A stretch of DNA of 64,000 nucleotides from Geothrix sp. GTDB lineage: Bacteria > Acidobacteriota > Holophagae > Holophagales > Holophagaceae. The notes beneath the pieces are model-generated. The model made no database searches. It saw only the letters and a list, made by a program, of their open reading frames with translations, and was not told the origin of the DNA. This document shows, piece after piece, positions 56,448 to 57,907 of this stretch. Within the stretch, counting starts at the first letter, position 1. Each line of letters starts with the position of its first letter. The stretch spans positions 62,001-126,000 of the forward strand of contig JAUXSE010000028.1 of NCBI GenBank assembly GCA_030681515.1. The letters are read 5' to 3'. Position numbers and translations under genes: made by a program.

Positions 56448-57593
56448 ATGCTCGCGCGCCCCGCCTTCCTGGAACACCTGCATACCGCCGCGAAGCGGTC
56501 GCCCATCACCGCGTTGCTGGGTCCGCGCCAGTGTGGAAAGACCACGCTGGCGCGCCTTTTTGCCGAAGGGAGGCAGGCAGCCTTCTTTGACATGGAGTCG
56601 GTGGCGGACCAGCGGCGGTTGCAGAATCCGGAATTGGCCCTGGGGGAGCTTGAGGGGCTTGTGGTGCTGGACGAGATCCAGGCCGTTCCATCGCTCCTCC
56701 CGGTGCTGCGCGGGCTGGTGGACCGCCCGGACCAGAAGGCGCAGTTCCTCATCCTCGGCAGCGCCTCTCCCCACCTCATCCGGCAGGCCTCGGAGACGCT
56801 GGCCGGACGCGTGGAGTTCGTCGAACTGTCGGGTTTCGATCTCTCAGAAACAGGATCAGCCGCCCTGAATGGCCTCTGGCTGCGGGGCGGATTCCCGCGC
56901 GCCTTCCTGGCAGCTTCTGACGGGGACAGCTTCGCGTGGCGCGAAGGGTTCGTGCGGACCTACCTGGAGCGCGACATCCCGCAGCTCGGGTTCCGGATCC
57001 CAGCCCCTGCCCTGCGGCGGTTCTGGACCATGCTGGCCCACTATCATGGCCAGACCTGGAACGCCTCGGAACTGGCCCGAGCCCTGGGCCTGTCAGACAA
57101 GACCGTGCGGAGCTACCTGGATATCCTCACGGGCACCTTCATGGTCCGTCAGGTCCAGCCCTGGTTCGAGAACCTCGGGAAACGCCAGGTCAAGGCTCCG
57201 AAGGTCTATTTCCGCGACTCTGGACTCCTGCACCACCTGATGGACATCTCCACCCGCCATCACCTGTTGGGTCATCCCAGGGTGGGCGCATCCTGGGAAG
57301 GCTTCGCCGTGGAGCAGGTGCTGCGGGCCTTCGGGCCCTCCGAACCCTACTTCTGGTCCACCCATGGGGGTGCCGAACTGGATCTGGTCTTCCAGCATCA
57401 GGGCAAGCGCCTCGGTTTCGAGATCAAGTTCACGGAGGCCCCGAAGACGACCGTCTCCATGCGAACCGCCCGTGCCGACCTCAAGCTGGATCACCTGTAC
57501 GTGGTCCATCCCGGACAGCACGCCTTCCCCATGGAACCCGGCATCACGGCGGTGCCCCTCTCCCAGGTTCAGGCATTGCCCGCCCGTTCCTAG
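56448..57593 (+). CDS. AAA-type ATPase with DUF4143 C-terminal domain
   Basis: The 381-residue protein has Walker A LLGPRQCGKTT (23-33) and Walker B LVVLDEIQ (69-76), a winged-helix middle region (SELARALGLSDKTVRSYLDIL) and the DUF4143 C-terminus with a nuclease-like GGAELDLVF..GKRLGFEIKFTE core resembling PD-(D/E)XK. These proteins are common, often horizontally spread, and of unclear function; links to toxin-antitoxin-like or defence roles have been suggested. No ribosome site precedes the ATG, and the -10-like TATTAT lies within 12 bases, so the transcript may be leaderless. Confidence 0.9.
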   Translation: MLARPAFLEHLHTAAKRSPITALLGPRQCGKTTLARLFAEGRQAAFFDMESVADQRRLQNPELALGELEGLVVLDEIQAVPSLLPVLRGLVDRPDQKAQFLILGSASPHLIRQASETLAGRVEFVELSGFDLSETGSAALNGLWLRGGFPRAFLAASDGDSFAWREGFVRTYLERDIPQLGFRIPAPALRRFWTMLAHYHGQTWNASELARALGLSDKTVRSYLDILTGTFMVRQVQPWFENLGKRQVKAPKVYFRDSGLLHHLMDISTRHHLLGHPRVGASWEGFAVEQVLRAFGPSEPYFWSTHGGAELDLVFQHQGKRLGFEIKFTEAPKTTVSMRTARADLKLDHLYVVHPGQHAFPMEPGITAVPLSQVQALPARS

Positions 57594-57907
57594 GGGTGCC
57601 CATCCGAAATACTCGTAACAAACGAATGCGGGTGGGCGCCACGTGGCAGGGGTCTGGGGGCATGGCAGTGCCCCCAGGGGGGTGACAGCCAGGACACGCA
57701 TCGCGTGCCCTGGCGCCAGAGGGGCTATGCCCCGATGCCCATAGATCCTGGCCAACGCATGTGTTGGCCAGGGGAAGTGCACCCCGCAGAGGTGCATTGG
57801 TACAAGTTCTTCAGGCGGGGTGCACTAGGGGTGCGCCTCGGCGCCTTTCCGTGACCATTGGCGGCCGTGTTTTGCATTTCATCCCGGTCCTGTCGGACAC
57901 TCGAAGC
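57594..57907. ncRNA. Array of six stem-loops, candidate structured RNA or repeat element
   Basis: This 314-bp gap has no supported gene. Consecutive stems are: 57598-57637 (9 bp with one wobble, enclosing a small inner hairpin); 57654-57677 (9 bp perfect); 57688-57714 (12 positions, one mismatch); 57721-57733 (5 bp); 57747-57772 (10 bp perfect); 57777-57825 (11 bp perfect, 27-base loop). A 10-bp palindrome GCCACGTGGC (57638-57647) lies between the first two. Little sequence is left unpaired until 57826. Whether it is transcribed is unknown, so the type is tentative. Confidence 0.55.

Follow-up and report, generated by a model that had tools for sequence, protein, structure and literature searches.

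The intergenic block at positions 57594-57907 of the window (the whole stretch of Geothrix sp. DNA that was analyzed, 64,000 nucleotides) is a mobile element. We are confident in classifying it as a non-autonomous miniature element (MITE) of the IS630/Tc1-mariner type, which would have been transposed in trans into the tetranucleotide CTAG and whose core is folded. The same core recurs in several phyla, where it is joined to other ends.

Structure of the element

The block had been predicted to contain six neighbouring stem-loops. All six (H1-H6) could be located, the pairing recurs in related copies, and the minimum free energy of the block (−169.3 kcal/mol) lies well below that of dinucleotide shuffles (−138.6 kcal/mol, sd 5.3; z −5.8); folding of the opposite strand gave z −4.9. 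H2, H5 and H6 are essentially perfect over 9-12 bp, and we agree that neither a single terminator nor a single REP unit would account for such an arrangement.

The natural unit extends from 57590 to 57828 (239 bp, counting the CTAG present at each boundary), while the 79 bases beyond it, up to 57907, are ordinary spacer ahead of the methyltransferase gene. The left CTAG (57590-57593), a copy of the target site, ends in the TAG with which the DUF4143 gene (56448-57593) terminates. It is followed on the plus strand by (i) H1, the left terminal hairpin (57593-57642), with its 5′ part forming the left terminal inverted repeat CTAGgGGTGCCCATCCGAAATACTCGTAACA, (ii) H2 (57654-57677; CTGGGGGCA..TGCCCCCAG), (iii) the core motif GGGGTGACAG (57679-57688), which is invariant in the genus alignment and common to several phyla, (iv) H3 (57688-57714), and (v) the core motif CGCCAGAGGGG together with H4 (57715-57737; GGGG..CCCC, the stem itself at 57721-57733), to which a basal CCA:TGG (or CCC:GGG) pairing is added in other copies. 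These are followed by an optional module (57738-57774) containing H5 (57747-57772; CCTGGCCAAC..GTTGGCCAGG), which most copies lack, by H6, the right terminal hairpin (57777-57825), with its 3′ part forming the terminal inverted repeat of that side, and by the right CTAG (57825-57828), the second copy of the target site. No transposase ORF is present in the window copy.

Dispersed copies and evidence of mobility

In the genome of origin (3.2 Mb, 66 contigs) 31 pieces matched the block, and about 20 dispersed copies are present. The copy number is a lower bound, because the repeat probably breaks the assembly; contigs C10, C17, C44, C45, C46, C48, C56 and C66 end in or near copies of the element. 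Copies were also found in 26 of 47 congeneric genomes, and as many as 18 matches were obtained in a single relative; G. limicola carries one (L351), and Geothrix and Holophagaceae are among the named records bearing the core. The length of 52 distinct copies ranged from 192 to 297 bp (mostly 198-208 bp for complete copies in the genus), and every complete copy had CTAG at both ends. The H5 module of the window copy recurs in two other genomes (G028 and G033), and a second optional module sits inside H2 in the genome of origin (L008), in G038 and in G044. A diverged subfamily (L023-L025) keeps the plan unchanged with different letters in the stems. Among the approximately 17 copies in genome G016 many are almost identical, which suggests recent amplification; two others (L161 and L162) are truncated within the loop of the left hairpin.

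The joined flanks of eleven copies were compared with the genus in a search for empty sites. An uninterrupted site with a single CTAG was detected for L024 in several relatives, for L023 in one relative, and for L010 in a paralogous stretch of its own genome, while the corresponding filled sites read CTAG-element-CTAG. The target is thus duplicated, although duplication of TA and of CTAG would give the identical sequence here. Copies L183 and L185 of G023 lie head to tail with one CTAG in common between them, the arrangement expected if CTAG is the target. These empty and filled sites, together with dispersed copies that have exact ends, bear out the involvement of a mobile element, one of several explanations offered in the original prediction. 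The genus flank search gave no empty site for the window copy, whose left end has moreover changed from CTAGTG to CTAGGG (T to G); this copy may therefore be inactive.

Terminal sequences and the putative transposase

A covariance model (R1) was built from the element's own ends only. In the genome of origin all 30 end matches of R1 belonged to short elements, and no autonomous copy was found. In ten relatives the model detected, beside copies of the element, a weak match in G041:C73 (E 0.001), obtained before any link to IS630 was known, which proved to be the end of an IS630 gene (locus L230). The unpaired R1 matches examined in these ten relatives were truncated or decayed copies; no autonomous copy sharing the hairpin ends was among them.

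A survey of IS630-type (DDE_3) genes followed, in which their flanks were compared. Autonomous IS630-family transposase genes of sister genomes proved to have ends matching the terminal ~30 bp of the element (CTAGTG..CGAAATAnCTGGATCA). At locus L228 the left end reads CTAGTGAAGGCCGCCAGAAATACCTGTAGCA and the right end, reverse-complemented, CTAGTGTAGGCCGTCAGAAATACATGTAAC, and loci L231 and L230 agree with this; R1 scores on these transposase ends ranged from E 5e-6 to 7e-4. Relatives of this transposase were located at 17 further loci, and in 13 of them CTAG with the same motif stands at the gene end (L273, counted among the 13, is the G041:C73 end once more); a similar IS630 end was found in another genus (L426). 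The transposase was assigned to NCBIfam transpos_IS630 with 252.8 bits (cut-off 100). A preference of IS630 for the TA within 5′-CTAG-3′ is the finding named in the title of Tenzen and Ohtsubo (1991), a reference cited in PMC2170065.

The element therefore shares with IS630-type MITEs inverted repeats common to an autonomous IS630 gene, insertion into TA/CTAG with duplication, and a short sequence devoid of a transposase. A partner IS630 in the same genome, which is usual but not strictly defining, was not found: elements with matching ends are present in G026, G033, G039, G041 and G365, whereas the single IS630 of the genome of origin has other ends. No DDE_3 gene was detected in G016, in the complete genome G137 or in the genomes of a second family (f5). 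The IS630 ends also lack the strong local hairpin seen at the ends of the MITE. As judged from the terminal sequences, the mover is very probably an IS630-type transposase. The proposal that the element moves through hairpins was not upheld, its ends matching instead those of a DDE (IS630) transposon with target duplication. Another transposase, DDE_Tnp_1 (PF01609), found in 20 of 47 genomes, was set aside after the IS630 ends had been matched.

Target site and stop codons

The tetranucleotide CTAG is rare in the window, with 18 occurrences against 197 expected from base composition (approx. 11-fold under-representation). For 27 of 31 usable insertion sites the TAG of the CTAG terminates, on one side or the other, a reading frame of 100 codons or more, with random positions already giving 59%. 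More discriminating were frames ending there from both sides, observed at 11 of 31 sites compared with 15 of 132 other CTAGs (11%; binomial P 4e-4) and with 5.7% of random positions (P 7e-7).

The element lands in CTAG, which is often a TAG stop, and here its left CTAG provides the stop codon of the DUF4143 gene. The earlier association with a horizontally spread ATPase family has no support: other copies adjoin genes of unrelated kinds, and in the present case the gene simply has its end at the CTAG target. Insertion re-creates the stop, and inserts at gene ends are therefore likely to be tolerated.

The pathway that we propose begins with an IS630 transposase acting in trans, which would recognise the inverted ends, excise the element by a cut-and-paste mechanism and insert it at the TA of CTAG, leaving CTAG on both sides. 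Given that CTAG is rare in these genomes and often forms a stop codon, gene ends are where inserts would arrive or persist, since duplication of the CTAG would restore the stop there; such insertion would permit spread without gene disruption. The folded core, as RNA or single-stranded DNA, would most likely serve either as a 3′-end or terminator-like shield for adjacent genes or to assist mobility.

Compensatory changes in the stems

In 23 copies 98.2% of the 44 predicted pairs were standard, and double changes occurred at 16 pairs; the covariation values were reached in 0 of 500 shuffles. This check, proposed with the original prediction, was therefore positive on the genus copies, and the related copies with compensatory changes that it had anticipated do exist. 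Letters change while pairing is kept, and the hairpins are maintained, although palindrome-correcting replication errors could be the cause of part of the covariation. Covariation is strongest in H3 (double changes at 7 of 9 pairs), an internal stem that a transposon end would not require. G-U exceeded A-C pair types by 18 to 8 when two columns were left out, a weak hint that the plus strand is the one that folds. In view of the conserved pairing, the core is possibly a structured RNA.

The core in other phyla

The GTDB species genomes were searched with the pattern GGGGTGACAGN{18,36}CGCCARAGGGG. At least 107 stretches matched, against a chance expectation of about ten by our own estimate, and the matches listed included Omnitrophota, Planctomycetota/Phycisphaerae, Clostridia, Marinamargulisbacteria, UBP18 and other Acidobacteriota. 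The continuation past H4 (CC.. and then ATGG), which was not forced by the pattern, was present in 66 of the copies examined, and H2 and H3 folded better than shuffles in 71 and 78 of 82 cases, respectively. With a model of the core, copies were detected in 21 of 396 sampled Acidobacteriota genomes, and in the second family (f5) CTAG again flanks them, their ends being CTAGTGTGCTGTC...

The core, H2-GGGGTGACAG-H3-CGCCAGAGGGG-H4-ATGG, is found as a multicopy repeat in Omnitrophota, Planctomycetota, Clostridia and other phyla, and there both the CTAG and the IS630 ends are missing. Most of the Omnitrophota and Planctomycetota copies follow a tRNA or tmRNA gene of the same strand at a distance of no more than about 110 bases, and their ends resemble the T-arm of tRNA. 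At L299, L305, L347, L349, L369 and similar loci the left end is a T-arm-like inverted repeat and the right end is a second copy of the 3′ part of the tRNA. Clostridia-type copies have other ends, and no fixed target duplication was readable in them. Among 92 distinct cores, the in-register positions of H3 show all four Watson-Crick pairs, with G-A/A-G mismatches occurring in addition at its positions 2 and 3. H4 varies at its base, from CCA:TGG to CCC:GGG.

These observations raise a second reading, which extends the first: the element may be a mobile structured RNA or single-stranded DNA defined by its core, which would borrow local ends or helpers lineage by lineage (those of IS630 in Acidobacteriota, tRNA-arm-like ones in the other groups). 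Multicopy occurrence in Acidobacteriota, Omnitrophota, Planctomycetota, Clostridia and others, the presence of compensatory changes in both H3 and H4 when phyla are compared, and placement at the ends of genes or tRNAs all speak for it, but no protein is consistently linked to the core, mobility is evident from empty sites in Acidobacteriota alone, and the pattern search favours its own motif. We put this reading forward tentatively, as possible rather than probable. With the same reserve, the core might represent a class of small folded mobile elements, so far undescribed and spanning several phyla, that settle at gene 3′ ends (TAG stops and tRNA/tmRNA ends), in which the RNA or ssDNA fold, and not the lineage-specific ends, would be the heritable machinery.

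The recurrence of the core across phyla with different ends would surprise a specialist. MITEs are usually thought to need their ends alone. An internal fold that is kept by compensatory change and that recurs with different ends makes a role of folded RNA or ssDNA testable, whether in assisting transposition or in shielding host genes from insertion; we infer a role either as a mobility aid or as a 3′ tail protecting adjacent genes. No Rfam 15 family scored above the gathering threshold in the window or in 14 diverse loci (loose thresholds gave chance-level hits only, e.g. terC, E 0.95), and the core thus differs from Rfam structured RNAs, which it resembles in its covarying multi-stem architecture. 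With the core seemingly absent from Rfam 15, such repeats are perhaps unannotated in many genomes. Viral contigs, plasmids and phages contained no match to the core, and a literature search on the motif letters and on CTAG-inserting repeats in these groups gave nothing relevant to it.

Relationship to known repeats

The IS630-type MITE described here may be compared with other IS630-family MITEs such as the pneumococcal RUP, which is likewise short and gene-less, with ends matching an IS630 element (IS630-Spn1-like; PMC3049150). It differs from RUP in being GC-rich, in its length (192-297 bp), in its five to seven hairpins with optional modules, and in a covarying core common to several phyla. 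Pneumococcal BOX elements are similarly modular, strongly folded and dispersed, with optional internal modules, but their ends are reported to be ISSpn2-like and not IS630-like, they occur in another host, and no link to the present element was found (PMC3049150). MITEPsy1 of Pseudomonas syringae is 100 bp long with ISPsy2-like ends, and the available part of its description mentions no multi-hairpin core (PMC3189936).

A REP/BIME element moved by a RAYT (a Y1 HUH transposase) would likewise place inverted pairs of tagged hairpins at the ends of genes, and each end of our element is indeed a tetranucleotide plus a hairpin in inverted orientation. The tag, however, is CTAG in all complete ends rather than GTAG or GGAG, the target is duplicated, and Y1_Tnp is absent from the genome of origin and present in only 5 of 47 genomes of the genus, mostly element-free ones. 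We consider this origin very improbable, and the suggested array of REP-like units has to be abandoned. An IS200/IS605-type palindrome element was rejected in view of the target duplication and the absence of a Y1 transposase. That the block is only a spacer made GC-rich by chance, or an ordinary cluster of terminators between the two genes, might be suggested by its GC-rich intergenic position at a gene end but can practically be dismissed given the folding z of −5.8, the dispersed copies with exact ends and the covariation not reached in any of 500 shuffles.

Other features of the IS630 elements

The IS630 element at L228 (G033:C376) contains a 139-aa passenger ORF (710-1129), which resembles a GxxExxY-type protein and adjoins a long inverted repeat (about 1193-1230 and 1290-1335). 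The different IS630 element of the genome of origin (L225; G000:C3:51370-54792), with ends AACATAGCGTC.., appears to interrupt a gene, possibly a restriction-specificity gene.
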